Made by a program: the position numbers and the translations under genes. A stretch of DNA of 64,000 bases from Cohaesibacter marisflavi (GTDB lineage: Bacteria > Pseudomonadota > Alphaproteobacteria > Rhizobiales > Cohaesibacteraceae). The stretch lies in assembly GCF_900115225.1 (NCBI RefSeq), contig NZ_FOVR01000002.1, positions 186,001 to 250,000 on the forward strand, given 5' to 3'. Numbering within the stretch: the first letter of the stretch is position 1; each line of letters opens with the position of its first letter. The notes under the pieces were generated by a model, which was not told the DNA's origin, ran no database searches, and was given only the letters and a program-made list of their open reading frames with translations. This document shows, in pieces, positions 8,128-64,000 of the stretch.

Positions 8128-9045
8128 TTACTGGAACAGAGACAGAATGCTCTGAGAACCAGAGTTGGCAATCGAGAGAGCCTGAATGCCGAGCTGCTGC
8201 TGTACCTGAAGAGCTTTCAGGCGTGTGGATTCTTCGTTCATGTCCGCATCTACCAGCTGGCCGATACCACGATCAATTGCGTCAGTCAGAGCAGAGATGA
8301 AGTCATTCTGCAGATCAACGCGGGTTTTGATCGAACCAAGAGTGGTTGCAGCATCAGTGATTTTGCCCATTGCGGTTTCAACGTCGTCGATCAGGGTATC
8401 AAGACCCGTGAGATCGTCATCGGCAACAGCAGAGATGTCGAAGTCAGACAGATCTGCACCACCAACGTTGGTACCCATAGTCAAGGCAGTATCGAAGATA
8501 CCTGCACCACTGCCAGTGGAGTCGAACAGCTGAATGTCGGACAGAGTGACATCAATCGTTTCAATCTGAACGGCACCAGAGCTGTCACGGCTGAAGGAGC
8601 TGACGATGCTTTTGGTAGGTGTGGTACCCGTGTCACTGACGAGCCAGTTTTCGGAGTTGAACACAGCTGAGTTCGCGACGGATTTCAACTGGTTCTGAAG
8701 CTGAGAGATGTCAGACTGGATTTTGGCACGATCAAGACCAGGTTCCTTCGCAGCAACCAGTTTGTTCTTGATCTCTTTCATCACATCAACGGTAGAGTTC
8801 ATGGCCGTATACATGGTGTCGACGGTAGCGGCACCAAGACCGAGCGCATCCTGCACAGCAGAAAGAGCGCCATTATCGGAACGCATGGTTGTTGCGATGG
8901 ACCAGTAGGCAGCGTTGTCTTCTGCTCCGGCAACGCGCATACCAGTGGAAATGCGCTGCTGAGTAGCGTCCAGATTTTTGTTCGTGGCGTTCAGGGTCTG
9001 CAAAGCAGTCATTGCAGAGGTGTTGGTCAGAATACTGTTAGACAT
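8128..9045 (-). CDS. Flagellin of the alphaproteobacterial system (Fla)
   Basis: 305 residues. The start at 9045 (MSNSILTNTSAMTALQTL) matches rhizobial and Caulobacter flagellins; an upstream in-frame start would break the export signal. The N-terminal D0/D1 domain (NLDATQQRISTGMRVAGAEDNAAYWSIA pattern) and the C-terminal domain (ESTRLKALQVQQQLGIQALSIANS, residues 265-300) are well conserved, and the central region is short, as in rhizobia. The protein is exported and polymerises into the filament. The gene is monocistronic, between terminators at 9261-9287 and 8061-8090, with a structured 215-nt upstream region. It differs strongly from the three longer flagellins at 51-56 kb (MPVISTN type). 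Confidence 0.93.
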   Translation of the reverse strand: MSNSILTNTSAMTALQTLNATNKNLDATQQRISTGMRVAGAEDNAAYWSIATTMRSDNGALSAVQDALGLGAATVDTMYTAMNSTVDVMKEIKNKLVAAKEPGLDRAKIQSDISQLQNQLKSVANSAVFNSENWLVSDTGTTPTKSIVSSFSRDSSGAVQIETIDVTLSDIQLFDSTGSGAGIFDTALTMGTNVGGADLSDFDISAVADDDLTGLDTLIDDVETAMGKITDAATTLGSIKTRVDLQNDFISALTDAIDRGIGQLVDADMNEESTRLKALQVQQQLGIQALSIANSGSQSILSLFQ

Positions 9046-9260
9046 GATTATGTCCCTTTCAAAAGTAGAAGATAGAGGGGACATTCCGGGCTTTTATCCG
9101 GGACAACAGGGCGGCCTCATGCCTTTGAGCATTTGCTTTAGGTTATGCTCAACCTGTCGTGCTTCTCACCATAGTGAGCTGACCTTGCCTCAGGCTGACC
9201 AGTCTGTCGAGGCACGACATTTTTTATTCAGCGCTTGCTGGCAGAAGCATGAACAAAAAG
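9046..9260 (-). promoter_or_regulatory. Flagellin upstream/leader region with inverted repeats
   Basis: This stretch holds the flagellin promoter and leader. It contains TTGAGCAT/ATGCTCAA (9125-9132, 9145-9152) and an 8-bp outer repeat TGTCGTGC/GCACGACA (9155-9162, 9212-9219), so it could fold into two hairpins. In Alphaproteobacteria flagellin mRNA is controlled post-transcriptionally by FlbT acting on the 5' leader (established for Caulobacter); whether these hairpins serve that purpose here is inference. Confidence 0.45.
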
Positions 9261-49615: not shown

Positions 49616-49663
49616 AGCCGCGATGGTCTGATTTTGGCGAACCAGGATCTTGAGAAGAAAGTG

Positions 49664-49697
49664 AATTGGCGTGCTGACTTGTGCGCCAATTTTCTTT
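49664..49697 (+). terminator. Terminator of the RND efflux operon
   Basis: Perfect 8-bp repeat AATTGGCG (49664-49671) and CGCCAATT (49684-49691) with a 12-nt loop, then TTCTTTT. It lies 49 bases past the pump stop. Confidence 0.7.
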
Positions 49698-49698
49698 T

Positions 49699-50539
49699 CA
49701 TGCGACAGGCACGAAAATCGCTAAATACCGCCAGCTTAAAAGCACTCGGTTTTCCATCTCAGAGCTCTATTTGACTGAGGGGTGACGTGGAAAGGGAGCG
49801 ATCAAGCCAGATGAATTCACCCGAGGGAATGACGTGAAAATATGATTCGATAGGAGGTTCAATCGACTCATTTCGGTGAGCAGAGCTGGATTTAAACGGC
49901 CCGTTGTCAGTCAAATGAACTGCTTCTGCTGTTTTTTCTGTGCAGAAACAGGGGGCTTTCAGGGGTGGGAAAGATTCTATTTTGTGTAGGTACATATAAA
50001 AATATTTCTACAATTGTCCATCTCTGTCTAAATATAAATTCTCGTAAAAATTGAATGTTTTAACACTTTAGTAATGTATATTAACAAGTTCCTAATCGAA
50101 TTAGGGAGAGGAAGATATTTAGATAATGATCTGGTATATTTAGAACGTAAACATAAAATAGTATTACAACTTTTTCTCAGAAATAGTGATATTTATTGAA
50201 AATCTTGTGTATCAAAAAAAATCTATGTAAAAATCCTATTTGTCGAAACTTATATATCATCAATATGTGTATTGAGTATTTTGAATATGTTTGTATATAA
50301 AAATTCAGAGCAATAATTTTTAAATTATTGCTGAATTAATTTTTTTAATCTATTTAAAAAAAATTTTATAAAGTTAAAATTATTATAATTATGGTAAAAT
50401 ATGCGATATTGTAATTTTATTTCGTGTATATACTGAAGAATAGATATTATCACTTTTTACTAGGCAAAAGATTCCGGGCAAAATGCAGATTTTTCCTAGA
50501 AAAGATCAGAAATAAGCTGAAAAAAAACTTATAGTTACA
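49699..50539. other. AT-rich non-coding region before the second flagellar cluster
   Basis: About 840 bases without a supported gene; from about 49990 to 50520 it is extremely AT-rich, with runs such as AAAAAAAT and TTTTTTAA, in contrast with the GC-rich neighbours. It separates the efflux operon from the ECF sigma gene. Such regions often attract nucleoid or xenogeneic silencers and can mark the edge of transferred DNA. No tRNA, repeat or insertion-sequence end was found. Confidence 0.6.
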
Positions 50540-50565
50540 CGCCTGAAAGAGTTCGGTACAACGTT
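50540..50565 (+). promoter_or_regulatory. Candidate ECF promoter (own promoter of the sigma gene)
   Basis: CGCCTG (50540-50545), 16 bases, CGTT (50562-50565); 62 bases before the sigma gene. The two blocks recur before flagellins 1-3 and flgD. Blocks of this type with 16-17 spacing fit the ECF sigma -35/-10 layout, in which CGTT is a common -10. Its presence here implies autoregulation. Confidence 0.5.
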
Positions 50566-50626
50566 TTATTAGTAGGAAGAAATTTGTGAGGTGACTTCTT
50601 AGCCTGAAACGTTGATGGACTGAACA

Positions 50627-51283
50627 ATGAAGAACGCAACCATGCAATCTGTTTCACAATCGGACATACCTGAAACGGTTACGACAAAGTCGCAACTGCT
50701 GCAGGCGCGTGACCTGGTTGCTCTGAGTGATGACGAATTGCTTGGTTTGATCGCTTTGGGACAGGAAGAAGCCTTTCAGGCGCTCGTTGAACGCCATGTC
50801 GACCGTGGCTATGCGGTTGCCTATCGTATCCTGCAAGATGGCCCCGAGGCCGAAGATGTGCTGCAGGATGCGTTCCTTCAGGTTTGGACCCGTAGGGGTA
50901 ACTGGAAAGCGGGGCGCGCTAAGTTCTCGACCTGGCTTTTCAAGGTCGTGACCAACCGCTGCATTGATCTTCTGCGCAAAAACAGAACGTCCGCCATGGA
51001 CGAATTGCCCGATCTTAAAGATGACAGCTCGAACCAGTCTGCCATTCTTGAGATGCAGGAAGCAATCGATCTGCTTGAAGGGGCTGTTGCTCAGTTGCCG
51101 GATCAGCAACGTATCGCCATCGTCTTCTCCTATAACGAGAGTATGAGCAACAGCGAAATCGCGGAAATTATGGAAACAAGTGTGTCCGCCGTGGAATCTC
51201 TGCTCAAGCGCGGACGTCAAAAACTGCGTCAGATACTCAAGGCACATAGCTCCGATATTCTCTCGCTATTTACGCAACCTTAA
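50627..51283 (+). CDS. ECF-type sigma-70 family factor upstream of the second flagellin set
   Basis: 218 residues. Region 2 spans about residues 50-115 (FQALVERHVDRGYAVAYRILQDGPEAEDVLQDAFLQVW, then FSTWLFKVVTNRCIDLLRKNR). Region 4 spans about 145-205 (LPDQQRIAIVFSYNESMSNSEIAEIMETSVSAVESLLKRGRQKLRQIL). Regions 1 and 3 are absent, as expected for ECF factors; the N-terminal 45 residues are extra. No anti-sigma gene is adjacent. It is transcribed toward the flagellins, and a two-block element shared with the flagellin and flgD promoters lies before its own start, so it is probably the regulator of this cluster. FliA (sigma-28) is not encoded in the window. Confidence 0.9.
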   Translation: MKNATMQSVSQSDIPETVTTKSQLLQARDLVALSDDELLGLIALGQEEAFQALVERHVDRGYAVAYRILQDGPEAEDVLQDAFLQVWTRRGNWKAGRAKFSTWLFKVVTNRCIDLLRKNRTSAMDELPDLKDDSSNQSAILEMQEAIDLLEGAVAQLPDQQRIAIVFSYNESMSNSEIAEIMETSVSAVESLLKRGRQKLRQILKAHSSDILSLFTQP

Positions 51284-51312
51284 GCACCTTTCGCTGCAAT
51301 CTGATTTAATTT

Positions 51313-51339
51313 CGCCCGGTTTGGCTATTGCCTCCCGTT
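51313..51339 (+). promoter_or_regulatory. Candidate ECF promoter of flagellin 1
   Basis: CGCCCG (51313-51318), 17 bases, CGTT (51336-51339); 67 bases before the flagellin start. The extended first block CGCCCGGTTTG is identical to that of flagellin 2. Confidence 0.6.
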
Positions 51340-51406
51340 AGAGACAGTAGGCGCACAGCATTTTCATATGAGCAAGCGCCAACTGCCCGTAACGAGGAGT
51401 TTGAGC

Positions 51407-52621
51407 ATGCCCATAATTTCCACGAATATTGCCGCCAACATTGCTGTGCGATATTTGAACCAGAATTCAACCCGGCTCAGTGACTCCATCTCCAAACTTT
51501 CAAGCGGATCGCGCATCGTCAAAGCCTCTGATGATCCGGCAGGGTTGGCGATAGCGACGGGCATGTCTTCTGATCTTGCCAATTTGGAGCAGGCGTCCGT
51601 GAATGCCTCCAACAGTCTGGCTCTGTTGCAAACGGCAGACGGCGGTGCAGCATCGATATCCGAAATTCTGGAGCGCATGAAAAGCCTTGCATCGCAGGCA
51701 GCTTCCGGAACGGTGACGGACGATGAGCGCAGCAATATTCAAACCGAATTTGCAGCCCTGATGGAAGAGATCGACAGCGTCAGTGCTGGCACCCGCTATA
51801 ATGGCGTCAGCCTGCTGGACGGCTCAAGCAACTATTCCGATGACACCGTGGAGACCGCAGCGGTCTTTCATAGCGGCGTGTCTGCCGGCTATGGTGCTGC
51901 CGCATCTGCAAATGATGCGAGCGCCAGTTTCTCGATCAATGGCACGGTGGTGACGGTGACCAGTCACAGTGATGGAGCCAACACAGAGGCTTTGTCGTCG
52001 CAGGATCTGGCGGATGCGATCAATCACTCTCTGCAAGAACAGGGTGACTATACCGTATCGGCATCAGTGGATGCGAGCGGAGCCCTTATCTTCGCAAGCG
52101 AAGAAACTGGCGCCAACGCAACGCTCGATATTTCGGATGTGACGGGTGACAGCGGGCTGCTTGCATCCATGGGGCTCTCGGAAGGGGACAACGTGAAGGA
52201 GCGGGGCGCATCAATCGAGGCGGTGACCACCGGAGCGAATGTGGTGGTTGGTGTTTCTGGCAACGATACGATCAATCTCTCCATTCAGGCCCTGACGACA
52301 GAAGCACTCGGGCTGTCCGGATTGGATCTGTCTTCCAGAGAAGGTGCTACAAAGGCTTTCTCTTTGCTCGATCTAGCGATTGGGTCTGTTGCTGATGCGC
52401 GCGCCGAGATGGGGGCGACCATGTCCCGCTTTGAATTTCGCTCGCAGCAGATCGACACAAGCCTTGAAAATCTCGAAGCGGCCAAATCCGCGATTATGGA
52501 TGTCGATATCGCCAAGGAAATGGCGAAGATGTCTTCCGAGACCGTGCGTGTAAAAGCGGCAGCCGCCGCTGTGGCGCAAGCCAACAGAGTGCCGCAATAT
52601 CTGCTCAAGCTCCTTCAGTAG
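51407..52621 (+). CDS. Flagellin 1 of the second filament set
   Basis: 404 residues from the ATG at 51407 (ribosome-binding site GAGGAG). The N-terminus is MPIISTNIAANIAVRYLNQNSTRLSDSISKLSSGSRIVKASDDPAG, the usual D0/D1 beginning with the LSSG.RI..A.DD.AG motif. The C-terminus FEFRSQQIDTSLENLEAAKSAIMDVDIAKEMAKMSS, then RVPQYLLKLLQ, closes D1/D0. The middle is a Ser/Asp/Thr-rich exposed domain. This MPxISTN type is unlike the rhizobial flagellin at 8128-9045. It differs from flagellins 2 and 3 throughout, so it may play a minor or different role in the filament. Confidence 0.94.
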   Translation: MPIISTNIAANIAVRYLNQNSTRLSDSISKLSSGSRIVKASDDPAGLAIATGMSSDLANLEQASVNASNSLALLQTADGGAASISEILERMKSLASQAASGTVTDDERSNIQTEFAALMEEIDSVSAGTRYNGVSLLDGSSNYSDDTVETAAVFHSGVSAGYGAAASANDASASFSINGTVVTVTSHSDGANTEALSSQDLADAINHSLQEQGDYTVSASVDASGALIFASEETGANATLDISDVTGDSGLLASMGLSEGDNVKERGASIEAVTTGANVVVGVSGNDTINLSIQALTTEALGLSGLDLSSREGATKAFSLLDLAIGSVADARAEMGATMSRFEFRSQQIDTSLENLEAAKSAIMDVDIAKEMAKMSSETVRVKAAAAAVAQANRVPQYLLKLLQ

Positions 52622-52876
52622 GCCTTTTGCTACCGCAGATATTCTTTTGGTGGATATAGTCGGCTTGTTGCTTTTTGCGAAGCTTCCCGCATTTTATGAA
52701 AATTAATTTACCAAGTAATTTTCCAAATTTAATCTTTCATTAACTATAATAAAACCCGATATTGAGCGAAAAAATGGCTGAAATCAGCTAATTTATGCTT
52801 AAAATCAAAGAGGGGCCGATAAAACCTTATAGTTAACAAAGGTTTAAAGGGTTAAAAAATAAAGTAAAATAAATCT
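52622..52876. other. Flagellin 1-2 spacer, upstream part
   Basis: 255 bases, no gene; with the promoter region it makes a gap of 359 bases between the two flagellins. It is AT-rich from about 52690. No clear terminator follows flagellin 1. GCCGATAA at 52815-52822 is a perfect sigma-28 -10 box, but a matching -35 (TAAA) occurs only 11 bases before it instead of 15. Confidence 0.4.
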
Positions 52877-52903
52877 CGCCCGGTTTGCCAACCCTGACCC
52901 GTT
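52877..52903 (+). promoter_or_regulatory. Candidate ECF promoter of flagellin 2
   Basis: CGCCCG (52877-52882), 17 bases, CGTT (52900-52903); 77 bases before the start codon. Extended block CGCCCGGTTTG and CCCGTT match flagellin 1. Confidence 0.6.
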
Positions 52904-52980
52904 ACAAATACAACGCGTGAAATAACGCACTTAACGGCACTGTAAAGTGGAGCCATTTTTTTCGAGTCAGGATATCTACC

Positions 52981-54198
52981 ATGCCAGTAATCTCTACCAA
53001 CACAGCTGCAAACACTGCAGTGCGTTTTTTGAACAGAAACTCCGATGATCAGTCCAACTCTCTGGCAAAGCTGGCCAGTGGGTCCAACATCAACAAAGCC
53101 TCTGATGATGCTGCCGGTCTGGCTATCGCGACCAAGATTTCGACCGACGTGGCTGCGCTGGAACAGGCTTCCACCAACGCTTCCCACGCTGTTTCGGTTT
53201 TGAACACCGCAGATGGTGGTGCTTCCAACATTGCTGATATCGTCGAGCGAATGAAAACGCTGGCCTCCCAGTCCGCTTCCGGTACGGTAACCGATGTAGA
53301 ACGCGCCTACATTCAGGCTGAATTCTCGCAGCTGCAGGACGAAATCGACGGCATCACCGAATCCACCCGCTACAACGGTCAGGGCCTGTTGGATGGTTCC
53401 AGCGACTTCTCCGTGGATGATACGGAAACGGCAGCTGCTTATGCGAGCACGACGGCTGCTACAGATTATGCTGCAGCTGCGTCTGCGGTCGATGCAACAG
53501 CCACCTTCACCGTCAACAATACGAAAGTCACCATCACAAGCGCTAGTGATGGTACGAACACCACTGCAATGGATACCGACGCTCTCGTTGCTGCTATTAA
53601 CACTGCCTTGGAAGATGGCGGGAACTACACGGTATCTGCTGCAAAGAATGGCGATGGTGAAATCGAGTTCACATCCCTTCAGACCGGTGATAACGCCAAG
53701 GTTAGTATCTCGAACATTTCCTCTACAGGCGACGGTGCCGCTCTGGTGACTGCTATGGGGCTGGTTGCTGGTGATGCATCGGGCACGACGACTGCTGTGG
53801 ACACCACGGGGGCAGAAATCGTTGTCGGATCAACCTCTGCTGACACCATTAATCTTTCAATTGACTCGTTGACGACCGAGGCACTTGGAATTAGTGATCT
53901 GGACGTTTCCACCGGTGAAGGGGCTGCTGAAGCGCTCTCCGTTCTCGATATGGCAATTGACACCATCTCCGATGCCCGCGCCAAGCTTGGTGCAAAAATG
54001 AGCCGGTTCGAGTTCCGCTCTTCCCAGATCGACACCAGCGTTGAAAACCTTGATGCTGCCAAGTCTGCCATCGCCGACGTTGACATCGCCAAGGAACAGG
54101 CCTCCCTGTCTTCCTCCAGCGTGAAGGTTCAGGCTGCTGTTGCAGCCGCTTCTCAAGCCAACGACATGCCGCAGAACCTGCTTAGCTTGATCCAGTAA
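52981..54198 (+). CDS. Flagellin 2 of the second filament set
   Basis: 405 residues. N-terminus MPVISTNTAANTAVRFLNRNSDDQSNSLAKLASGSNINKASDDAAG; C-terminus FEFRSSQIDTSVENLDAAKSAIADVDIAKEQASLSS and DMPQNLLSLIQ. Ends and middle fit D0/D1 and an exposed D2/D3. The central 448 bases (53417-53864) are almost identical to flagellin 3, while the last 330 bases differ at about a quarter of positions, a sign of gene conversion. Ala and Thr dominate the central domain. Probably a major filament protein together with flagellin 3. A strong terminator follows. Confidence 0.95.
   Translation: MPVISTNTAANTAVRFLNRNSDDQSNSLAKLASGSNINKASDDAAGLAIATKISTDVAALEQASTNASHAVSVLNTADGGASNIADIVERMKTLASQSASGTVTDVERAYIQAEFSQLQDEIDGITESTRYNGQGLLDGSSDFSVDDTETAAAYASTTAATDYAAAASAVDATATFTVNNTKVTITSASDGTNTTAMDTDALVAAINTALEDGGNYTVSAAKNGDGEIEFTSLQTGDNAKVSISNISSTGDGAALVTAMGLVAGDASGTTTAVDTTGAEIVVGSTSADTINLSIDSLTTEALGISDLDVSTGEGAAEALSVLDMAIDTISDARAKLGAKMSRFEFRSSQIDTSVENLDAAKSAIADVDIAKEQASLSSSSVKVQAAVAAASQANDMPQNLLSLIQ
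53417..53864 (+). repeat. Near-identical central flagellin segment, copy 1
   Basis: This 448-base stretch matches 55144-55591 with seven differences by eye (about 98% identity), whereas the flanking coding DNA is far less similar, especially downstream. It encodes the surface-exposed domain. Confidence 0.9.
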
Positions 54199-54605
54199 TA
54201 CAAGCTTCATAGATAGCTCGACATCTTAAAGCGGTCGGATGCGTCAAGGGCGCATCCGGCCGCTTTTTATGCAAGAGACAGGTGTTTTTGAAACACTGAT
54301 GGACAGTTCGAAAGGTCTGGATTGCAAGAGGCTCCCCGGGCCTTTCCTTTACAAATGCTTACCGAATTCAGGTGGCTCACTTGTGTTGATTGCGCAGGGC
54401 AGGGAATATTAACTTACTATTAATTATAAAATTTGGTCGTTTGAAGTTTATTTTTTGAAAAGTCACCCAAAAAATCGGAGTTGTTATTAATATTTTTCTT
54501 TGTGAATGCTTGGAAAAGCGTAGATAAAACCTAACAAAGTGAAAATTCTGGATCGAACTCTTTATTCAACGTTAATTTTGAGGCGCATTGGGCAAAAATA
54601 TTTAG
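54199..54605. other. Spacer between flagellins 2 and 3
   Basis: Apart from the terminator at 54231-54268, this stretch has no gene. It is AT-rich from about 54410 to 54580, as are the other spacers in this cluster. With the promoter region it makes a 512-base gap before flagellin 3. Confidence 0.45.
54231..54268 (+). terminator. Terminator of flagellin 2
   Basis: A 13-bp stem (54231-54243 with 54251-54263; one G-U pair) with a 7-nt loop is followed by TTTTT (54264-54268). It lies 33 bases after the stop codon. Confidence 0.93.
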
Positions 54606-54632
54606 CGCCCGATTTGCTCTGCTTGGCCCGTT
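54606..54632 (+). promoter_or_regulatory. Candidate ECF promoter of flagellin 3
   Basis: CGCCCG (54606-54611), 17 bases, CGTT (54629-54632); 78 bases before the start codon. Extended block CGCCCGATTTG and CCCGTT are close to those of flagellins 1 and 2. Confidence 0.6.
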
Positions 54633-54710
54633 GAATAGTCAAGACGCAAGGAAAAGCGTCATCCGCTTAGTAACAGTAGCGCGGCTATCGTTTAGTTCAG
54701 GAGTTCGACT

Positions 54711-55925
54711 ATGCCCGTAATTTCTACCAATACCGCAGCAAACACTGCAGTTCGTTTTTTGAACAGAAACTCAAGTGATCAGACCAACTCGCTTGCCAAA
54801 CTGGCCAGTGGGTCCAACATCAACAAGGCGTCTGATGACGCTGCCGGTCTGGCTATCTCCACTAAAATCGGTACCGACGTTGCCGCGCTGGAACAGGCTT
54901 CCACCAACGCTTCCCATGGTATTTCCGTTTTGCAGACCGCAGACGGTGGCGCATCCAACATTGCTGATATCGTCGAGCGTATGAAAACGCTGGCCTCCCA
55001 GTCTGCTTCCGGTACGGTAACCGATGTAGAACGCGCTTATGTGCAGGCTGAATTCTCGCAGCTGCAGGACGAAATCGACGGCATCACCGAATCCACCCGT
55101 TACAACGGTCAGAGCCTGTTGGATGGCTCTAGTCCATCAAACAATGATACGGAAACGGCAGCTGCTTATGCGAGCACGACGGCTGCTACAGATTATGCTG
55201 CAGCTGCGTCTGCGGTTGATGCAACAGCGACCTTCTCCGTCAACAATACGAAAGTCACCATCACAAGCGCTAGTGATGGTACGAACACCACTGCAATGGA
55301 TACCGACGCTCTCGTTGCTGCTATTAACACTGCGTTGGAAGATGGCGGGAACTACACGGTATCTGCTGCAAAGAATGGCGATGGTGAAATCGAGTTCACA
55401 TCCCTTCAGACCGGTGATAACGCCAAGGTTAGTATCTCGAACATTTCCTCTACAGGCGACGGTGCCGCTCTGGTGACTGCTATGGGGCTGGTTGCTGGTG
55501 ATGCATCGGGCACGACGACTGCAGTGGACACCACGGGGGCAGAAATCGTCGTCGGATCAACCTCTGCTGACACCATCAATCTTTCAATTGATTCTCTCGA
55601 TACTGAATCTTTGGGTATCGCTGATCTCGACGTTTCTACCGAAGAAGGGGCTGCTGAAGCGCTCTCCGTTCTCGATATGGCGATTGACAAGATCTCTGAT
55701 GCGCGTGCTGAAATCGGTGCGACCATGTCTCGGTTCGAGTTCCGCTCTTCCCAGATCGACACCAGCGTTGAAAACCTGGAAGCTGCCAAGTCTGCCATCG
55801 CTGACGTAGACATCGCCAAGGAACAGGCTTCTCTGTCTTCCTCCAGCGTGAAGGTTCAGGCCGCTGTTGCAGCTGCTTCTCAGGCCAACCAGATGCCACA
55901 GAACCTGCTTAGCCTTATTCGGTAA
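54711..55925 (+). CDS. Flagellin 3 of the second filament set
   Basis: 404 residues. N-terminus MPVISTNTAANTAVRFLNRNSSDQTNSLAKLASGSNINKASDDAAG; C-terminus MSRFEFRSSQIDTSVENLEAAKSAIADVDIAKEQ and QMPQNLLSLIR. The central domain is nearly the same as in flagellin 2, but the flanks differ, for example DTESLGIADLDVSTEEGAAEA here. It follows flagellin 2 in the same direction, with its own promoter-like element, and precedes the capping protein fliD by 69 bases. A weak hairpin follows, so read-through into fliD is possible. Confidence 0.95.
   Translation: MPVISTNTAANTAVRFLNRNSSDQTNSLAKLASGSNINKASDDAAGLAISTKIGTDVAALEQASTNASHGISVLQTADGGASNIADIVERMKTLASQSASGTVTDVERAYVQAEFSQLQDEIDGITESTRYNGQSLLDGSSPSNNDTETAAAYASTTAATDYAAAASAVDATATFSVNNTKVTITSASDGTNTTAMDTDALVAAINTALEDGGNYTVSAAKNGDGEIEFTSLQTGDNAKVSISNISSTGDGAALVTAMGLVAGDASGTTTAVDTTGAEIVVGSTSADTINLSIDSLDTESLGIADLDVSTEEGAAEALSVLDMAIDKISDARAEIGATMSRFEFRSSQIDTSVENLEAAKSAIADVDIAKEQASLSSSSVKVQAAVAAASQANQMPQNLLSLIR
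55144..55591 (+). repeat. Near-identical central flagellin segment, copy 2
   Basis: Partner of 53417-53864: seven differences in 448 bases. Similarity falls sharply just after 55591, where the two genes read ctcgatactg versus ttgacgaccg-like sequence. Confidence 0.9.
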
Positions 55926-55941
55926 AATTAATATTCAGGTA

Positions 55942-55971
55942 GGGCCGCCTGATCGGGTGGCCCTGTCCGTA
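55942..55971 (+). promoter_or_regulatory. Hairpin and ECF-like element before fliD
   Basis: GGGCCGCC (55942-55949) pairs with GGTGGCCC (55956-55963; one G-U), a stem of 8 bp without a T run. Overlapping it, CGCCTG (55946-55951), 16 bases, CGTA (55968-55971) differs in one base from the cluster's two-block element. It may be a weak promoter or an attenuating hairpin between flagellin 3 and fliD. Confidence 0.35.
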
Positions 55972-55994
55972 TAACTAATACAGGAGTTTGGCAA

Positions 55995-57752
55995 ATGACG
56001 AGTGTTAGTTCTACCGATACAGGCGCGGCGACGACCACGACAACGAACACTACCACTACGTCTTCATCCAGCTCCAGCTCCGCTCATACTGCCAATGTGT
56101 CGTCCGACTCGGATATCGATTGGGATGCCCTAATCGAGGCGGCAGTGCTGCAAAAGCAGCTCCCAGCGGATCGTATCAGCAATAAAATCACGGAAAATGA
56201 AGCCAAAATTGAATCCTACAACACCATGCAGGACCTGCTTGGTGACATGCTGGATTCTGTCGAGACCATCACAGGCGTCTCTGAATCCCTGACAGAACAG
56301 GATGACATTTTTTCCTCGCGCGAAGCCTATCTGACAGGTATCGGTGGCGCGGATGCTGAAAATTCACTGGTGGTGACCGCTGAGGCGGGTGTCGCCATCC
56401 AGACCTACGAGCTCACCATCGATCAGCTCGCAACCTCCCAGAAAGTGGCCAGCGCTTCGCAGAGCAGCGGTTATGATGAACTCGGGTATACGGGTACGAT
56501 CTCACTCTCCATGGAAGGAGCGGCCATTCCTGTCAATAAAGACGGGGACGAAGATCCGACCTTGCTGCAAGTTGAAGTCGACGACACCATGAGCCTCGTC
56601 GAGATCGCAGATGAGATCAATACCCGAACCGATTATACGGGCGTAACTGCCACGGTGGTCGCCGTCAATGAGAACGACTTTCGTCTCGTGCTGACGGGGG
56701 AGACCGGCACGGATATCGTCATGACCTCGGTTGAGGGGGATGACATCGGCCAGTCGCTCGGGCTGACCGACGGCAGCGGTGCCTATGTTGACGAGTTACA
56801 ATCTTCGCAAATCGCCAAATTTAACGTCGATGGCGTCGAGATCTCCCGAAAAAGTAATACTGTTGATGATGTGATTGATGGCGTCACATTCTCTCTTTAC
56901 CAAACCACCGACGTTGGCGAATCCATCGCGGTCGAGATTGGCCAGTCCCTGTCTTCCATCAAGGATGCCGTGGTTTCGCTGGCCGATAGCTACAATGCCT
57001 ATCGTGAATGGGCCATCACCCAACAGGCGATCGACGCAAGCGGATCCGTCTCCGATGACGCGACCCTGTTTGGCGACAATATGCTGCGCAATATCAACAC
57101 AGAGATCGCGCGCGGTTTGTCTAAGGTGATTGATAGCGAAGGCATGGCGCTGCTCGGGCTTTCCTATGATGAGAATAACTATCTGGAGCTGGATGAAAGC
57201 GAGCTGAACGACGCGCTGTTGAACGACATCGATCAGATCGAGGATGTGCTCAACTTCCAGTATGAAACCAGCAATTCCGATCTGGCCGTTCTGCGGCGTA
57301 ACGCCAACATGCCCTCGGAGCTGACGCTTGACTTTACCGTTGATGAGGAAGGCGCTCTTGTCGGTGTTCTTGCAGACGGAGAGGCGGGGCTGTTCGAGGT
57401 GGATGGCACCCGTATCGTTGGTGTTGAGGGAACGGACTATGAGGGGATCACCTTTGTCTATACAGGCGATGAAAATGCCACGATCTCCTTCAGCACTTCT
57501 GCTGGCATGGCGGAACAGCTTTTCCAGTCACTGAACAAATATACAGATGAGGATGATGGTCTTTTGACTGAGAAGATCGCATCCCTCGAAGAACAAAACG
57601 AAGATTATGAAGCCGAATATGACGACTATATGAGCATCGTTGATGCTTATGAAATGCGTCTGACGGAGCTTTACTCATCTTACCAGGCAGCGATCGAAGA
57701 GGCCCAAAGTTCGCTGGACTATCTGGAAGCCATTCTCAATTCGGGAGACTAA
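55995..57752 (+). CDS. fliD: Filament cap protein FliD
   Basis: 585 residues. A 35-residue Ser/Thr-rich start (VSSTDTGAATTTTTNTTTTS) precedes the D0/D1 region (WDALIEAAVLQKQLPADRISNKITENEAKIESYNTMQDLL), a large central domain with YELTIDQLATSQKVASASQ, and the C-terminal coiled part (NEDYEAEYDDYMSIVDAYEMRLTELYSSYQAAIEEAQSSLDYLEAIL). FliD caps the growing filament and helps flagellin fold. FliD is usually missing from rhizobial flagella, so its presence marks a second type of filament. fliS follows after one base. The ribosome-binding site is CAGGAG. Confidence 0.9.
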   Translation: MTSVSSTDTGAATTTTTNTTTTSSSSSSSAHTANVSSDSDIDWDALIEAAVLQKQLPADRISNKITENEAKIESYNTMQDLLGDMLDSVETITGVSESLTEQDDIFSSREAYLTGIGGADAENSLVVTAEAGVAIQTYELTIDQLATSQKVASASQSSGYDELGYTGTISLSMEGAAIPVNKDGDEDPTLLQVEVDDTMSLVEIADEINTRTDYTGVTATVVAVNENDFRLVLTGETGTDIVMTSVEGDDIGQSLGLTDGSGAYVDELQSSQIAKFNVDGVEISRKSNTVDDVIDGVTFSLYQTTDVGESIAVEIGQSLSSIKDAVVSLADSYNAYREWAITQQAIDASGSVSDDATLFGDNMLRNINTEIARGLSKVIDSEGMALLGLSYDENNYLELDESELNDALLNDIDQIEDVLNFQYETSNSDLAVLRRNANMPSELTLDFTVDEEGALVGVLADGEAGLFEVDGTRIVGVEGTDYEGITFVYTGDENATISFSTSAGMAEQLFQSLNKYTDEDDGLLTEKIASLEEQNEDYEAEYDDYMSIVDAYEMRLTELYSSYQAAIEEAQSSLDYLEAILNSGD

Positions 57753-57753
57753 T

Positions 57754-58206
57754 ATGAATTATGCGCAAAACCGCGCGGTGAACGCCTATAGGACTGCCAA
57801 TACGGCTGTGCCGCCCGTCAAAGCTGTCGCTATGCTGCTCGATGAAGCGCTGAATGCGATCGTGTTGACAGCCTACTATATCAAGCGCAAGGAATTCGAG
57901 AGCGCTTTCGGGCGTGTTGTTCATGCCTCCAAGATTCTGAGTGGACTGCGGCAGAATGTGAATCTGGATGTGGACCCGCAAATGGGTCAGCAGTTCATCG
58001 ACATGTATACCAGCAACATTTTTGCTTTACACAATGCTTATGGACGTGATGACGCGATCCAAAGATATGCTACGCTGGCTAGCGGTATTCTGGAATTCCG
58101 CAATGCATGGGCAGAACTCGCAAGAATGCAGCAACGAAGCATTGACACCGTCATGGGCGGGATTTTAGATCAAAAAGAAGAAGTGGTTGCCGCTGAAGCG
58201 GTATAA
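57754..58206 (+). CDS. fliS: Flagellin export chaperone FliS
   Basis: 150 residues. The FliS fold begins NYAQNRAVNAYRTANTAVPPVKAVAMLLDEALNAIVLTAYYIKRKEFESAFGRVVHASKIL, followed by QFIDMYTSNIFALHNAYGRDDAIQRYATLASGILEFRNAW. FliS binds the flagellin C-terminus in the cytoplasm until export. It lies one base after fliD, the normal pairing. FliS is uncommon in Alphaproteobacteria with the rhizobial flagellum; these flagellins with the ISTN start and the FliD-FliS pair belong together. A 9-bp inverted repeat follows its stop. Confidence 0.87.
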   Translation: MNYAQNRAVNAYRTANTAVPPVKAVAMLLDEALNAIVLTAYYIKRKEFESAFGRVVHASKILSGLRQNVNLDVDPQMGQQFIDMYTSNIFALHNAYGRDDAIQRYATLASGILEFRNAWAELARMQQRSIDTVMGGILDQKEEVVAAEAV

Positions 58207-58231
58207 CGCCTGGACGATCGAGACGACGGCT

Positions 58232-58260
58232 TAATTGTCCAGCCAATGATAGGACAATTA
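58232..58260 (+). promoter_or_regulatory. Inverted repeat covering the ribosome-binding site of the 81-aa gene
   Basis: TAATTGTCC (58232-58240) and GGACAATTA (58252-58260) are perfect 9-bp arms with an 11-nt loop. The second arm contains the presumed Shine-Dalgarno AGGA and ends on the first base of the ATG. In mRNA the stem would hide the start region. The arrangement suggests translational control of the small protein. Confidence 0.6.
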
Positions 58261-58505
58261 TGGCCAAGTCCGAAGGTGATATGACGATTGAGCAGTTCGA
58301 GGAACTGTTGGATCAGCACGGTCCGGATTTGAGAAATTGGCCAGAAGAGCAAGTGGCGCCAGCCCTTGCTCTTTTAAGTATTTCCCAAGATGCACAAGAT
58401 AGCTTGCGACTTGCAGCAAGCATTCCCAAGCTGGCGAAGGCCTCGCCAGCCCCGAAGGCTCCGGCCTCTCTTGTCAATCGCATCATGACGAAAGTCAAAA
58501 AATAA
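58260..58505 (+). CDS. Small acidic protein, possible ECF partner/anti-sigma
   Basis: 81 residues. The motif IEQFEELLDQHGPDLRNWPEEQVAPALALLSISQDAQ followed by an Ala/Pro/Lys-rich tail (KASPAPKAPASLVNRIM) looks like the short proteins (FE.LL...G.D...WP......A.ALL..S..A) that I recall beside ECF sigma genes in Alphaproteobacteria. There is no membrane helix. It is 54 bases from fliS and could be cotranscribed with fliD-fliS. I infer that it regulates the ECF factor at 50627-51283, but family membership is from memory of the pattern only. It could also be a filament-assembly factor. Confidence 0.45.
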   Translation: MAKSEGDMTIEQFEELLDQHGPDLRNWPEEQVAPALALLSISQDAQDSLRLAASIPKLAKASPAPKAPASLVNRIMTKVKK

Positions 58506-58811
58506 CATCATGATGTGCTGCTGCTTTGAAAGCGCGGGCTCCGTCTGAGTATCTGCGCGTGGTGTGGCACCCAATTACAAAAGCTTTTTCGCAAGCAGTA
58601 GCGGTTCTCATATTTAATCATTTGTTTCATCGCGTCCTTTGGATAGGCGAAATCTAGATATACGAGGATTTATTAAAGTAAATATTATTATTATAGGAAT
58701 TTATTACAATTAAATACTTGTAAATTGCGCGTATTTATTTAGGTAGGCAATTAATTCCTAGAGGAAATAAGTATAGGGCAATATTTTCCTAAATAAAAAA
58801 TGAAAAAATAC
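58506..58811. other. AT-rich non-coding stretch before the flgD promoter
   Basis: About 305 bases without a gene; the part from 58600 on is very AT-rich, like the region before the ECF gene. ACATCATGATGT near 58504 is a short palindrome. Nothing else is visible. Confidence 0.45.
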
Positions 58812-58837
58812 CGCCTGATTTAGCTTTTTGTCCCGTT
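58812..58837 (+). promoter_or_regulatory. Candidate ECF promoter of flgD
   Basis: CGCCTG (58812-58817), 16 bases, CGTT (58834-58837). Extended block CGCCTGATTTA and CCCGTT resemble the flagellin promoters. Because the -10-like block ends at 58837, translation of flgD must start downstream of it. Confidence 0.6.
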
Positions 58838-58917: not shown

Positions 58918-59586
58918 ATGACTGTATCTGCACTGGCCTCTTCTACAGCAAGTACGACGACCACTACGACTTCAAGTCAGGGGCTGGGGTTGGATACATC
59001 GCAGTTCTTGCAGCTCATGGTCGAGCAGTTGCAGAACCAGAACCCGACCGATCCCACCGATACGACCGAATTTCTCAACCAGATGGTTCAGCTGTCGACC
59101 TACGATCAGCAAGTCGAGAATGCGAACCGCCTCGAAACAGTCGTCTCATCTCTGGATACAATGATCGCTGCGAATGGCCTCGGCTATATCGGGCAATCTG
59201 TTTCTGTCCTTGGCGATACCACGACGCTTCAGGATGGTTCCGCCCAGTGGAACTACGCGCTCGAAAGCGATGCCACAGATGTCAAAATCGAGATCTTCGA
59301 TGAAGACGGCAATTCGGTCTACACAGCCGATGGTGAGACCGAAGCGGATGGGTCCCATGAATTTAAATGGGATGGCGTGACCGATGAAGGCAAGCAGCTG
59401 GACGATGGCAGCACCTACAGAATTGAGATCACCGCGACCGATCAAGAAGGCAATGACATTGAAACCAGCACCTCGGTAACGGGAAAGGTCACTGGTGTCG
59501 ATGCTTCTTCTGGCCAGACATATCTGACAATGGGCGATGTCTTCTTCACGCTCGACCAAATCATCTCAGTTAGTTCTGATAGTTAA
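58918..59586 (+). CDS. flgD: Flagellar hook-cap protein FlgD (second system)
   Basis: 222 residues from the ATG at 58918 (MTVSALASS). Longer readings from 58828 or 58846 are excluded or unlikely because the candidate promoter ends at 58837; an ATG at 58861 remains possible. The Thr/Ser-rich start is followed by the FlgD signature FLQLMVEQLQNQNPTDPTDTTEFLNQMVQLSTYDQQ (about residues 30-65). The C-terminal Ig-like part contains VKIEIFDEDGNSVYTAD and GTYRIEITATDQEGNDI. FlgD caps the hook during assembly. It heads a hook/filament-junction operon with flgE, flgN, flgK and flgL. Confidence 0.9.
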   Translation: MTVSALASSTASTTTTTTSSQGLGLDTSQFLQLMVEQLQNQNPTDPTDTTEFLNQMVQLSTYDQQVENANRLETVVSSLDTMIAANGLGYIGQSVSVLGDTTTLQDGSAQWNYALESDATDVKIEIFDEDGNSVYTADGETEADGSHEFKWDGVTDEGKQLDDGSTYRIEITATDQEGNDIETSTSVTGKVTGVDASSGQTYLTMGDVFFTLDQIISVSSDS

Positions 59587-59681: not shown

Positions 59682-60932
59682 ATGAGTTTGATGGGTGCAA
59701 CAAACGCCGCGATCACGGGCTTGGCCGCCCAGTCGCAGGCGCTTTCGAATGTTTCAAACAACTTGGCAAACTCGGATACGACCGCATACAAGGCGTCCAA
59801 AACGAGCTTTTCAAGCCTCGTTGCTGGGTCTGGTAACAACAAGAGTGGGGGTGTGCACGCCAGCAACACGACCAATAATACAGCTCAGGGTCTTGTGACC
59901 GACTCGGCCATCTCCACGCATCTTGCCATTCAGGGCAACGGTTACTTCGTGGTCTCCGAGGAGGGGGATACATCCTCTCGCTACTACACCCGTAATGGTG
60001 AATTCGCGGTCGACAATGACGGTTACCTGATGAATGGCGACTACTATCTGCTCGGTTGGGCAACCGATGCGGATGGCAATGTGGCCGGCGGCGCCAGCAG
60101 CGTCAATCTGGACAAGATCGATTTGAGTTCCATCCAGAGTTCGGCTCAGGCAACCTCCGAGGCTTCCATTCAGGCGACGCTGCCCGGGGATGCTGTGCTG
60201 AACTCGACCTTTGAATCCAGCTTCGAGGTCTATGACTCGCTGGGAACGGCAAGCACGATTACCGCAACCTATGAAAAAACGGCTCAAAACACTTGGACGA
60301 TTACCTATTCTGATCCGGTTTCTGCGGACACATCCACGACAACAGGCTCTGTGACCAGCTCGCCAATTACCGTCCAGTTCAATAATGATGGCTCTCTGGC
60401 CAGCGTTTCTGGCACCGACCTCGATATCACCTGGAATACCGGTGCGGCGGCTTCCTCAATCAAGCTTGATTTGGGGACGGTCGGTGGTTCTGACGGCCTG
60501 ACGCAATATTCTTCCAACGATGTCGAGAATGCGGATATCGATGTCAAATCCATCATCGTTGATGGCCGGGCTTACGGCACGGTGGATGATATCGAAATCG
60601 AGACCGACGGGTCTGTGGTGGCTACCTTCTCCAACGGCGAAACGCGCAATATCTACAAGATCCCGGTCGCCACATTCATCAACTCCGATGGACTGACTGA
60701 AGACAGTGATGGCATCTACGCGATTTCAACTTACTCGGGCAACGCGACCCTGCATACAGCAGGCACGGGCTCGGCAGGCAGCCTGAAGAGCAGCTCGCTG
60801 GAATCCAGCACCGTGGACACCAGCACCGAATTTGCCAGCATGTTGTCCGCCCAGCAGGCCTATTCCTCTGCGTCCCAGATCATTTCAACTGCCGGCGACA
60901 TGTTTGACAGTCTCCTGCAAGCCGTGCGGTGA
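59682..60932 (+). CDS. flgE: Flagellar hook protein FlgE (second system)
   Basis: 416 residues, normal for FlgE. N-terminal rod domain MSLMGATNAAITGLAAQSQALSNVSNNLANSDTTAYKASKTSF with the SNNLANSDTTAYK motif; body with AIQGNGYFVVSEEGD and YYTRNGEFAVDNDGYLMNGDYYLLGW; C-terminus LSAQQAYSSASQIISTAGDMFDSLLQAV. It is a different type from the flgE at 1-248, so this organism encodes two hooks. The two genes share the general fold but not the close sequence. It follows flgD after 95 bases with no promoter-like element, probably in the same transcript. Confidence 0.93.
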   Translation: MSLMGATNAAITGLAAQSQALSNVSNNLANSDTTAYKASKTSFSSLVAGSGNNKSGGVHASNTTNNTAQGLVTDSAISTHLAIQGNGYFVVSEEGDTSSRYYTRNGEFAVDNDGYLMNGDYYLLGWATDADGNVAGGASSVNLDKIDLSSIQSSAQATSEASIQATLPGDAVLNSTFESSFEVYDSLGTASTITATYEKTAQNTWTITYSDPVSADTSTTTGSVTSSPITVQFNNDGSLASVSGTDLDITWNTGAAASSIKLDLGTVGGSDGLTQYSSNDVENADIDVKSIIVDGRAYGTVDDIEIETDGSVVATFSNGETRNIYKIPVATFINSDGLTEDSDGIYAISTYSGNATLHTAGTGSAGSLKSSSLESSTVDTSTEFASMLSAQQAYSSASQIISTAGDMFDSLLQAVR

Positions 60933-60937
60933 TTTTC

Positions 60938-61195
60938 ATGTCGGATGATCTGGCCCATTGCAAGGCTGAGCTCAGGCGCCTCAAGGCTGAAATCCGCCGC
61001 TATGAGAGAGAGCCGGACCGTGCGTCCGGCAAACTCCTGCTGTTGGTTGCCCGAAATGCTCTGAAGGACTTGATAAAGCATATGCGGGGCCAGCAGGCGA
61101 ACATCAAGAATAAGCGCTCTCGCTCAACAAAAGCCAACCAGGTGGCAAACGCCTATTCTCAGTTGAACCAGTTTCGAAAAACGAACAAAGGCTAA
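60938..61195 (+). CDS. Small basic coiled-coil protein downstream of flgE
   Basis: 85 residues from the ATG at 60938; the reading frame continues upstream to a GTG that overlaps the flgE stop. Strongly charged with Arg/Lys and Glu: AELRRLKAEIRRYEREPDR, then a Lys-rich end NIKNKRSRSTKANQ. No family recognised. It lies between flgE and flgN in the same direction with gaps of five and nine bases, so it is translated as part of the hook operon. It may be a small chaperone or regulator of flagellar secretion; there is no direct evidence. Confidence 0.5.
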   Translation: MSDDLAHCKAELRRLKAEIRRYEREPDRASGKLLLLVARNALKDLIKHMRGQQANIKNKRSRSTKANQVANAYSQLNQFRKTNKG

Positions 61196-61204: not shown

Positions 61205-61690
61205 ATGCACGACGAACTCAATACCAAGATGGTCCATTCCGAGCGTGATATCGAACGCATCGAAAGCGCCATTGATGAAGCGATCACGGTGGCTGATGAA
61301 CTGATCCGCATTGCCGGAGAAGAAAATCAGCGTCTCGAAAGCGGCCGCCCCACTTCATTGGACGATCTGCTTGTCAGAAAACACAAGCTGGCTGGCGAGT
61401 TTGATGCTTTCTTCAAGCGCTTCAAGGCTGAACGCGAGGTCTTTCTCTATGCCTCGGATGAGAAGTTCAACAGTTTGCAGGATCGTATTCAGATCCTTGC
61501 CCAGTCCTTTATGGAAAATGCCAACCAGTTGAACCGAGCGATGTCGGCCAATGAAAGGCGCATCAGTGCCATCATGCGGGCCATTCGCGACAATCAGGAT
61601 GCTAGCGCCTTGCCATCCTACGGGGCTGCTGGGCAAAGCGCTTCCAGCACGCCACATGCTGCGTCCCTCAAGGGAGGGCGCAAGGTTTGA
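61205..61690 (+). CDS. flgN: Flagellar export chaperone FlgN
   Basis: 161 residues, almost all helical. The pattern IERIESAIDEAITVADELIRIAGEENQRLESGRPTSLDDLLVRKHKLAGEFDAFFKRF fits the FlgN family (first helix, a short loop with L..LL..K..L, second helix), followed by helices to about residue 130 and a disordered tail. FlgN binds FlgK and FlgL before export, and those two genes follow directly. The start is preceded by AAGGGTGA. This position (flgN, flgK, flgL) is the classical one. Confidence 0.75.
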   Translation: MHDELNTKMVHSERDIERIESAIDEAITVADELIRIAGEENQRLESGRPTSLDDLLVRKHKLAGEFDAFFKRFKAEREVFLYASDEKFNSLQDRIQILAQSFMENANQLNRAMSANERRISAIMRAIRDNQDASALPSYGAAGQSASSTPHAASLKGGRKV

Positions 61691-61803: not shown

Positions 61804-63162
61804 ATGACATCGCTGAATGTTGCCCGATATATCGCCTCCAGTTCGCTGGGCGCGACACAGGTTCAGGTATCCGTGACGGCAAACAATATTGCCAACGCAG
61901 ACACCGAAGGCTATACGGTGAAATCTGCTTCAGCCAGTTCTCGCGCCTACGAGGGCGTTGGCGGGGGCGTGTCAGTTGATGGCGTTTCCTCTTCTGTCAG
62001 CAAATATCTCCTGACCGATCTGCTTGAGGCCACCTCGGGAGCGGCTTCGGCCACAAAGACCGCTGAATATCTGAGTGAGCTGCAGTCCTCACTTGGAACG
62101 TTGGAAGATCAAACTGGCGCGGGCACATCGCTTGGCTCGACGATTGCAGATTTCGAAGAAGCCTTGACCCAACTGGCCACAACACCCGAAAGCACGGCGC
62201 TGGCCAATAATGCGGTGACCGCTCTGGAAGACCTCACCAGCCAGATCAGGGATACGGCGTCCGATCTTCAGGGCATGGTGGACAAGGCAGATCAGGAGAT
62301 TGCCGCAAGTGTGGATGATGTCAATGAAGTGCTTGAGACGATCGATGAACTCAATGATTTGATCCGCACTGAAAAGGCAGCAGGCAACAGCACAGCCAAT
62401 CTGGAAGATCAGCTCAACTCGGCCCTGACGGATTTGTCGGGCACGTTGGACATCAAGACCTTTCCATCGGCAGATGGCACCACGAAGGTCTATACCACCA
62501 CCGGACAAATACTCGTAGGGTCGACGGCGCATCTTCTCTCAACCGGCCTCGATGCCGAGGGGCAGACGACGATATCCGTCAATGGATCGGACATAACCAG
62601 CCGTCTTAATGGTGGCAACAGTAAGATTGGTGCCCTGCTGGAACTCAGGGACGAGACCCTGCCGGAGTATCAGGCTGCTCTTGATGAGATGGCGACGACC
62701 ATGATCACGACCCTGAATGGGGTGGCGGGGCTGAGTGGTGATATTCTGACAGGCACCAGCGCCAGCGACATAGCGGTTGAAACCACGGTGAAGGATGATC
62801 CGACCACTCTGTTGGGAACCGGCAACGGCGCCACGACGGCGAACAATCTGCTTGATGCTCTTCAGGGAGATACGAGCTTTTCTGCTGCTGGCAAGCTCTC
62901 TGCGGGAGACCGGACATTCTCCGAATATGCGACGGAAATTCTATCCGCTGCGGTGTCTGATGCCCAGAGCGCCTCTACCTCCCTCAATGCAGCCGAGGCA
63001 GACATGACTGCCGCGACGGATGCAATTTCATCAGCGTATGGCGTGAATGTCGACGAAGAGACGGCGCGCTTGTCAGAGCTTGAGCAGCTTTACTCAATCG
63101 CTTCTACCATTTTGAGTACCTTGCAGGAGATGTTTGATGACCTGCAAGCGGCAGTTTCATAG
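61804..63162 (+). CDS. flgK: Hook-filament junction protein FlgK (HAP1)
   Basis: 452 residues, shorter than the usual 540-550, so the central domain is reduced. N-terminus TSLNVARYIASSSLGATQVQVSVTANNIANADTEGYTVKSA has the NNIANADTEGYT motif. The middle has ADFEEALTQLATTPESTALANNAV and DLQGMVDKADQEIAASVDDVNEVLETIDELN. The C-terminus is DEETARLSELEQLYSIASTILSTLQEMFDDLQAAV. FlgK is the first junction protein between hook and filament. The ribosome-binding site is AGAGGGAA. flgL follows after 8 bases. Confidence 0.92.
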   Translation: MTSLNVARYIASSSLGATQVQVSVTANNIANADTEGYTVKSASASSRAYEGVGGGVSVDGVSSSVSKYLLTDLLEATSGAASATKTAEYLSELQSSLGTLEDQTGAGTSLGSTIADFEEALTQLATTPESTALANNAVTALEDLTSQIRDTASDLQGMVDKADQEIAASVDDVNEVLETIDELNDLIRTEKAAGNSTANLEDQLNSALTDLSGTLDIKTFPSADGTTKVYTTTGQILVGSTAHLLSTGLDAEGQTTISVNGSDITSRLNGGNSKIGALLELRDETLPEYQAALDEMATTMITTLNGVAGLSGDILTGTSASDIAVETTVKDDPTTLLGTGNGATTANNLLDALQGDTSFSAAGKLSAGDRTFSEYATEILSAAVSDAQSASTSLNAAEADMTAATDAISSAYGVNVDEETARLSELEQLYSIASTILSTLQEMFDDLQAAVS

Positions 63163-63170: not shown

Positions 63171-64000
63171 ATGGCAATGCGCGTAGCTACATTCCAGACA
63201 ACCTCTGCCCTGATGCAAAAGACGATGACCACGCAGGCTAGATTAGCTGAAGTGCAAGCGCAGCAGGCCAATGGTCTGAAAAGCTCGGACTATGGCGGCT
63301 TGGGGTCAAGTGCGGGCAGGGTGGTTGATCTCAGCATTTCCGTCACCCGCGCCGAAGCGAATATTTCTGCGGCAAATACCGTCGTCTCGCGCAATGATAT
63401 GGCCTCGTCGGTTCTTCAGGACATCACGGACATTCTGACCAATGCGCGCAGTGCGGTCTCGGCCACCCGGTCCGATGATGAACTGCAAAGCCTGCAAAAT
63501 AATGCGGCCGAGTATCTCGAAGACCTCAAGACCATGCTCAATACGCAATATCAGGGGCGCTATCTTTTTTCCGGCAGCACCACCGATACTGCGCCCGTCG
63601 ATTTCACCGCCTATGCGGTTGCGGATCTGACGACCGTCAATACGGACTATTACCAGGGTGATGGCTATACCCAGACGATCCGGTTGAACAATGGCCAGCA
63701 GATGGATTACGGCATCACCGCAACTGTGAGCGGCTTTGAAGAGGCCCTGCGGGCGCTTTCCTATGTGGCCGACGGCAACCTGACCGATACCAGTGAGCTG
63801 CAGGATGTGGATGCGCTACTGGTCAGTGCACAGGATAGCGTGATTGCTGCCACTTCCAAGGCCGGGAATACGTCAAGCCGTTTGGGAAGCTACATCGAGA
63901 ATGAAGAGGATTTCATCGCCGAGGCAGAAAATCTGGCTGCCGGAGAGACCTCTATCGATGCTGCCGAGGCCACGGTACTGGCGACGTCATACGAAACCCA
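63171..64000 (+). CDS. flgL: Hook-filament junction protein FlgL (HAP3), cut by window end
   Basis: The first 276 residues are present; the 3' end lies beyond the window. Start MAMRVATFQTTSALMQKTMTTQARLAEVQAQQANGLKSSDYGGLG is typical for FlgL, with the flagellin-like D0/D1 beginning. The segment MLNTQYQGRYLFSGSTTDTAPVDF is the FlgL signature. Later SAQDSVIAATSKAGNTSSRLGSYIENEE matches the C-terminal side. FlgL lies between FlgK and the filament. The ATG at 63171 has AGGTGA upstream; a second ATG two codons on is possible. Confidence 0.9.
   Translation, partial: MAMRVATFQTTSALMQKTMTTQARLAEVQAQQANGLKSSDYGGLGSSAGRVVDLSISVTRAEANISAANTVVSRNDMASSVLQDITDILTNARSAVSATRSDDELQSLQNNAAEYLEDLKTMLNTQYQGRYLFSGSTTDTAPVDFTAYAVADLTTVNTDYYQGDGYTQTIRLNNGQQMDYGITATVSGFEEALRALSYVADGNLTDTSELQDVDALLVSAQDSVIAATSKAGNTSSRLGSYIENEEDFIAEAENLAAGETSIDAAEATVLATSYET

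Follow-up and report, generated by a model that had tools for sequence, protein, structure and literature searches.

Which sigma factor transcribes the filament genes of an alphaproteobacterial flagellum? The timing of these genes is poorly known, and according to a study of Azospirillum brasilense no flagellum-specific sigma factor is known in the class (PMC12826043). The question is raised by a locus of Cohaesibacter marisflavi, in which a gene for an extracytoplasmic function (ECF) sigma factor stands directly upstream of three flagellin genes, followed by fliD, fliS, a small open reading frame (asf), and a hook operon that begins with flgD (Table 1). We refer to this set of genes as the cassette. 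The window, the whole stretch of DNA analyzed, comprises 64,000 nt (GCF_900115225.1, contig NZ_FOVR01000002.1, positions 186,001–250,000 of the forward strand). From sequence comparison, we consider it very probable that the locus is a flagellar regulon of the kind formed by RpoE6 and its anti-sigma factor Asf6 in A. brasilense, controlled by the local ECF sigma factor.

The motif CGCCYG-N16/17-CGTT has five exact matches in the window, each on the plus strand and inside the sigma–flagellin–flgD cluster, at the positions where an earlier note on this DNA had placed them. Dinucleotide shuffling of the window gave a mean of 0.60 matches, and none of 100 shuffles reached five. From the end of each site to the start of the following gene, as supported by homology, the distances are 61, 67, 77, 78, and 80 bases. 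Over the whole genome (5.34 Mb), 47 matches were found against 107 for a backward control pattern; thus, the motif is not enriched genome-wide. It is concentrated locally, as the earlier note had suggested examining: 5 of the 47 matches fall within one 8.3-kb stretch (binomial P ~1e-8, calculated post hoc). Among the 42 matches outside the cluster, 36 fall within reading frames of 100 amino acids or more and six outside them, a count that has no control. A stricter pattern, CGCCYGNNTT-N12/13-CGTT, matched five times in the genome, four times in the cluster, and its control matched three times.

When this stricter pattern was used to look for a wider regulon, it gave one match outside the cluster in the C. 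marisflavi genome, and no wider regulon was found in this way. The same pattern matched 66 times in the 12 genomes of the genus that carry the sigma gene (sigma-positive; backward control, 72) and seven times in seven sigma-negative genomes of the family (backward control, 31). In the window scan, no motif site was found at the flagellin gene of the neighboring lateral-type system (8128–9084). Two of the six matches of the simple motif outside long frames in the C. marisflavi genome (L152 and L167, intergenic) stand directly before open reading frames of 190 and 169 amino acids and represent either targets or chance.

The sites recur in related clusters. A relaxed motif was counted within 200 bases before automatically chosen starts in 25 clusters, 12 from the genus (window included) and 13 from elsewhere, with mononucleotide shuffles as the control; L144 and L038, with no flagellar gene in the stretch examined, had been left out beforehand. 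Near-identical congeners were counted singly, and the frames of broken genes in genome G400 were included. The motif preceded 43 of 52 flagellin frames (~0.9 expected), 22 of 24 flgD genes (~0.4 expected), and 16 of 25 sigma genes (~0.5 expected), the last count being affected by some wrong sigma starts (the site of G415 was seen only in a separate comparison). The other genes counted were at or close to chance level: fliD (1/25; 0.8 expected), fliS (0/26), asf (0/23), flgE (2/26), flgK (0/28), and flgL (0/24). By position of the sigma gene, a site was present in 16 of the 18 clusters that it leads (G043 and UR115 have none), and one match, at 15-base spacing, was found among the seven clusters with the Azospirillum arrangement, where the sigma gene lies behind fliS.

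Within the 12 genomes of the genus, sites in relaxed letters lay no more than 110 bases before the start of every sigma gene (12/12), every flgD gene (12/12), and 30 of 36 flagellin frames. The remaining six frames belong to G390 (two) and G400 (four, with one broken gene). Among the genus sites, the −10 block does not vary and the conservation of the −35 block averages 0.90–1.00, against spacer averages of 0.57 for the flagellins, 0.67 for flgD, and 0.80 for the sigma gene. The flanks are also conserved at the sigma gene (0.95 upstream) and at flgD (0.88 downstream); therefore, the contrast between blocks and surroundings is clean for the flagellins only. The spacing is 16 bases at sigma and flgD, and 17 at the flagellins.

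The protein encoded by the sigma gene contains ECF regions 2 and 4, with matches to PF04542, PF08281, and TIGR02937 that all exceed the cut-off, and is 45% identical to RpoE6 of A. brasilense over 177 amino acids. A tree built from 48 ECF proteins had a single branch (support 100/99) that separated the 24 proteins from flagellar clusters from the 24 others, where "not flagellar" was judged from the flanks examined, for some loci only ~1.5 kb per side. Three long-branched rows were left out of this tree; neither it nor a second tree that contained those rows included L138 or L016, the latter being the same locus as L031. By its place in the tree, the window sigma factor is a member of the RpoE6 clade. 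Of 385 genomes sampled from the class, 14 in addition to that of C. marisflavi matched it at E ≤ 1e-40, six in flagellar clusters and eight with no flagellar gene in the stretch examined. FliA belongs to a different sigma class and recognizes a different promoter. The FliA_WhiG model, run over the C. marisflavi genome, gave five matches, none above the cut-off of 189.6 bits; the window ECF scored 29.6 bits. The earlier note had proposed that the adjacent ECF sigma factor drives its own gene together with the flagellin genes and the hook operon. In favor of this, related clusters carry sites at precisely these genes, and the sigma factor is kin to RpoE6.

The earlier note had called such wiring unusual, but a precedent exists in RpoE6 of A. 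brasilense (PMC12826043, December 2025). As described there, the fliC2 start of strain Sp7 was mapped by 5′ rapid amplification of cDNA ends, which placed a −35 CGCCAG and a −10 CGTGAG 16 bases apart. A fliC2 fusion was strongly active in Escherichia coli expressing RpoE6 and inactive in the polar insertion mutant rpoE6::km, and a two-hybrid assay showed interaction of Asf6 with RpoE6. FlgL, whose gene is not on the fliC2 transcript, was observed only upon RpoE6 overexpression. The mapped promoter lies in our locus L029, where a second copy of the same blocks stands before flgD, which fits the appearance of FlgL; the main text of that study mentions flgD seven times, never with regard to a promoter. 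Its authors found no promoter before rpoE6 and no FliA or FlgM homologue in A. brasilense, and pointed out similar clusters in Magnetospirillum, Rhodopseudomonas, and Bradyrhizobium (PMC12826043). The same source places the lateral flagella of a related Azospirillum under the ECF41 sigma factor RpoE10. Apart from this study and RpoE10 for lateral flagella, we found no report of an ECF sigma factor for flagellins in Alphaproteobacteria in the openly licensed literature. Lateral and subpolar systems are described as uneven in Rhizobiales in an article whose main text mentions neither fliD nor a sigma factor (PMC6406911).

The likeness to RpoE6/Asf6 extends over several features: an ECF sigma factor of the same clade within a flagellar hook–filament cluster, the clustering of fliC, fliD, fliS, and hook genes, nearly the same −35 and −10 blocks, the 16-base spacing, and a small homologous anti-sigma factor. 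The pattern CGCCnG-N16-CGTn before flagellin is also found in the window, but with 17-base spacing at the flagellins, as throughout the genus. In contrast to the A. brasilense cluster, the window sigma gene leads the cluster and has its own site, the −10 is CGTT, asf follows fliS whereas the Asf6 gene adjoins the sigma gene, and there are three flagellins, each with a site. Promoter mapping, sigma dependence, and sigma/anti-sigma interaction were established in the A. brasilense relative (PMC12826043), and the sites, their conservation, the kinship, the gene content, and the copy numbers are established here. The window proteins probably act like those of this relative and are probably expressed from transcripts structured as predicted below.

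Judged by alignment, the 81-amino-acid open reading frame after fliS is homologous to the anti-sigma factor Asf6 (36% identity over 72 amino acids, E = 4e-9). It matched no Pfam or NCBIfam model, FlgM included; the FlgM search did not extend to the remainder of the genome. Residues F13, D18, G21, W27, P28, A45, and P68 are invariant in an alignment of 19 Asf proteins, and the only match of the family profile in the PDB at E ≤ 1 was the anti-sigma factor RsiW, at a weak E = 0.0059. The Asf orthologues of G263, G037, and one metagenome-assembled genome (L146, L147, and L037) carry a hydrophobic C-terminal segment, noted by eye, which suggests a membrane anchor in these three proteins.

In the regulon that we propose, the ECF sigma factor would recognize CGCCYG(RWTT)-N16/17-CGTT and transcribe its own gene, each of the three flagellin genes, and the hook operon flgD-flgE-orf88-flgN-flgK-flgL, with the flagellin 3 transcript continuing through fliD-fliS-asf. 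Asf, a small class-I-like anti-sigma factor, would be a product of the regulon of the sigma factor that it restrains. As asf would lie on the flagellin 3–fliD–fliS transcript, negative feedback is expected, and the outcome would be positive autoregulation with delayed negative feedback. A dedicated sigma factor with an anti-sigma factor for filament genes resembles enteric FliA/FlgM. However, the ECF site in the window also precedes the hook operon; therefore, an FlgM-like checkpoint on hook completion would not fit simply.

Several observations weigh against this regulon. When the three long-branched rows are included, the tree needs two label changes instead of one. The ECF protein of G242, which is not in a flagellar cluster, is 52% identical to the window sigma factor, above the 45% of RpoE6; it falls outside the flagellar group in the tree, and identity alone is therefore insufficient to assign that group. 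A structure model of Asf (four helices; mean predicted local distance difference test score, 74.9) gave no significant match in a fold search, and the match to RsiW is weak. In A. brasilense, RpoE6 affects non-flagellar proteins too, and an in-frame rpoE6 deletion still swims (PMC12826043). Finally, the flagellins of G390 and G400 (L140 and L139) have no motif near their starts, with their sigma and flgD sites kept; a match 173 bases upstream of a G400 flagellin is probably due to chance. Rewiring of these flagellins is possible.

The last two points are also those on which the strongest alternative draws, namely that the sigma factor is only a modulator and that sigma-54, CtrA, or sigma-70 supplies most of the cassette transcription, as may hold for the G390 and G400 flagellins. 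The A. brasilense rpoN mutant, which has neither kind of flagella, is consistent with this explanation, but fliC2 promoter activity was abolished in rpoE6::km (PMC12826043). Moreover, flagellin sites are retained in each of the other ten genus genomes examined, and we consider a modulator improbable. We regard it as very unlikely that the sites are read by the general stress sigma factor EcfG and that the local ECF sigma factor has other targets. EcfG promoters have the form GGAAC-N16/17-CGTT, whose −10 and spacing agree with the window sites, and the EcfG regulon is different. However, the window −35 is CGCCYG and not GGAAC, Azospirillum clusters with an RpoE6 of their own have a CGTG −10, and the cassette genes are present or absent together with the local sigma gene. 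The behavior of the fliC2 fusion, with its activity in E. coli expressing RpoE6 and its loss of activity in rpoE6::km, also speaks against EcfG (PMC12826043). Least likely of all is that the similar upstream sequences are functionless leftovers of flagellin duplication: flagellins 2 and 3 share 94% identity, and duplication of these genes could have taken the upstream regions along, but the sigma gene and flgD, which are not flagellins, have the same blocks, the flagellin sites keep these blocks while their spacers vary, and the blocks are found in distant genera.

The earlier note had listed a one-mismatch copy of the motif (CGTA) before fliD. The sequence is present, but we rejected it as a promoter because it overlaps a predicted hairpin and because the upstream motif count at fliD is at chance level (1/25 against 0.8 expected). 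The hairpin was predicted at the same place, with changed sequence, in 9 of the 12 genus genomes, each folded singly and without a covariation test; G390, G400, and G399 fold differently at this position. The hairpin may tune the expression of fliD-fliS-asf relative to flagellin.

On which motor would the products of the cassette be assembled? In a set of 20 genomes, the 18 of the genus and two of the family, the sigma factor, cassette FliD, and cassette flagellin were jointly present in 12 and jointly absent in eight, one of the eight being only 64% complete. Two FlhA copies were found in 11 of the 12 sigma-positive genus genomes (the second partial in G400) and three in G399 (contamination, 8%); elsewhere there was one in six sigma-negative genomes, none in G403, and one each in G415 and G422. 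FliF was present in two copies in all 11 sigma-positive genus genomes examined, in one copy in all six sigma-negative genomes, and in one copy in all eight sigma-positive genomes outside the genus. FlgK, counted by hand from long matches, was present in three copies in 10/10 sigma-positive genus genomes examined and in one copy in 6/6 sigma-negative genomes. Outside the genus, seven of eight sigma-positive genomes have two (G415, G422, G040, G051, G263, G037, and G340), and G043 has one whole FlgK and one piece at a contig end. Comparison of the FlgK and FliF counts thus indicates that the module adds one hook–filament set without an additional MS (membrane/supramembrane) ring.

In the C. marisflavi genome, relatives of flgD, flgE, flgK, and flgL occur at three places: the cassette, the adjoining lateral-type system, and contigs 12/15. 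The lateral-type system beside the cassette (1–24000 and L033) has separate genes for FlhA, FliF, flagellin, hook, and junction, and another flagellar system lies on contigs 12/15. As the cassette contains no MS ring or export gate, its products would need for their assembly a basal body whose genes lie elsewhere, and the copy numbers suggest that the cassette shares the basal body of another flagellar system. The cassette coincides with the lateral-type system in the genus, and either base could therefore be served. In extracts of an A. brasilense asf6 deletion mutant the polar flagellin band was lost and FliC2 was abundant (PMC12826043), which fits a shared base. More tentatively, the sigma/anti-sigma pair might be an exchange switch for the distal flagellum: with the sigma factor on, a complete alternative set of hook, junction, filament, and cap would be mounted on basal bodies that belong to another system. 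If this is true, the cell changes hook and propeller without making a new motor.

The system is of the RpoE6/Asf6 kind and has its precedent in A. brasilense. New are the predicted sites before the sigma gene and flgD (hook operon), conserved across the clade, the displaced anti-sigma gene, the rejection of the fliD site, and the pattern of a cassette without its own base. One mapped promoter in one species is thereby extended to a regulon logic of sigma, flagellin, and hook operon in many genera, and the copy-number pattern makes it testable whether one sigma/anti-sigma pair lets bacteria swap hook and filament on a motor used in common.

Table 1. Features of the sigma–flagellin–hook cluster in window coordinates.
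Feature	Coordinates	Strand	Basis or remark
Promoter of ECF sigma gene, CGCCTG-N16-CGTT, predicted autoregulatory	50540–50565	+	motif; 12/12 sigma-positive genomes of the genus
ECF sigma factor, 218 amino acids, RpoE6 clade	50627–51283	+	profile matches, homology, tree
Flagellin 1 promoter (predicted), 17-base spacer	51313–51339	+	motif, conservation
Flagellin 1	51407–52621	+	start by homology; longest open reading frame from 51368
Flagellin 2 promoter (predicted), 17-base spacer	52877–52903	+	motif, conservation
Flagellin 2	52981–54198	+	open reading frame, profile match
Flagellin 3 promoter (predicted), 17-base spacer	54606–54632	+	motif, conservation
Flagellin 3	54711–55925	+	open reading frame, profile match
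Predicted hairpin in flagellin 3/fliD gap, holding the −35-like half of the rejected fliD site	55938–55968	+	
fliD, filament cap	55995–57752	+	profile matches
fliS, flagellin chaperone	57754–58206	+	above Pfam cut-off, below NCBIfam cut-off
asf, 81-amino-acid Asf6-like anti-sigma candidate	58260–58505	+	36% to Asf6, E = 4e-9
flgD (hook operon) promoter (predicted), 16-base spacer	58812–58837	+	motif, conservation
flgD, hook cap	58918–59586	+	start by homology; longest open reading frame from TTG 58828
flgE, hook	59682–60932	+	41–47% identity to FlgE of clusters in L029–L031
88-amino-acid open reading frame (orf88), kept in most clusters of the genus	60929–61195	+	
flgN-like chaperone	61205–61690	+	PF05130, E = 5e-6, below Pfam cut-off
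flgK	61804–63162	+	homology
flgL	63171–64000	+	runs on to about 64067, beyond the window

The open reading frames beyond flgL appear metabolic by eye. Before the sigma gene lies a long AT-rich stretch without a large open reading frame (49620–50500, by eye). Directly upstream of the sigma promoter, ATAGTTACA at 50531–50539 is present in 12/12 clusters of the genus, even where the spacer differs, and is possibly an upstream element or a regulator site.

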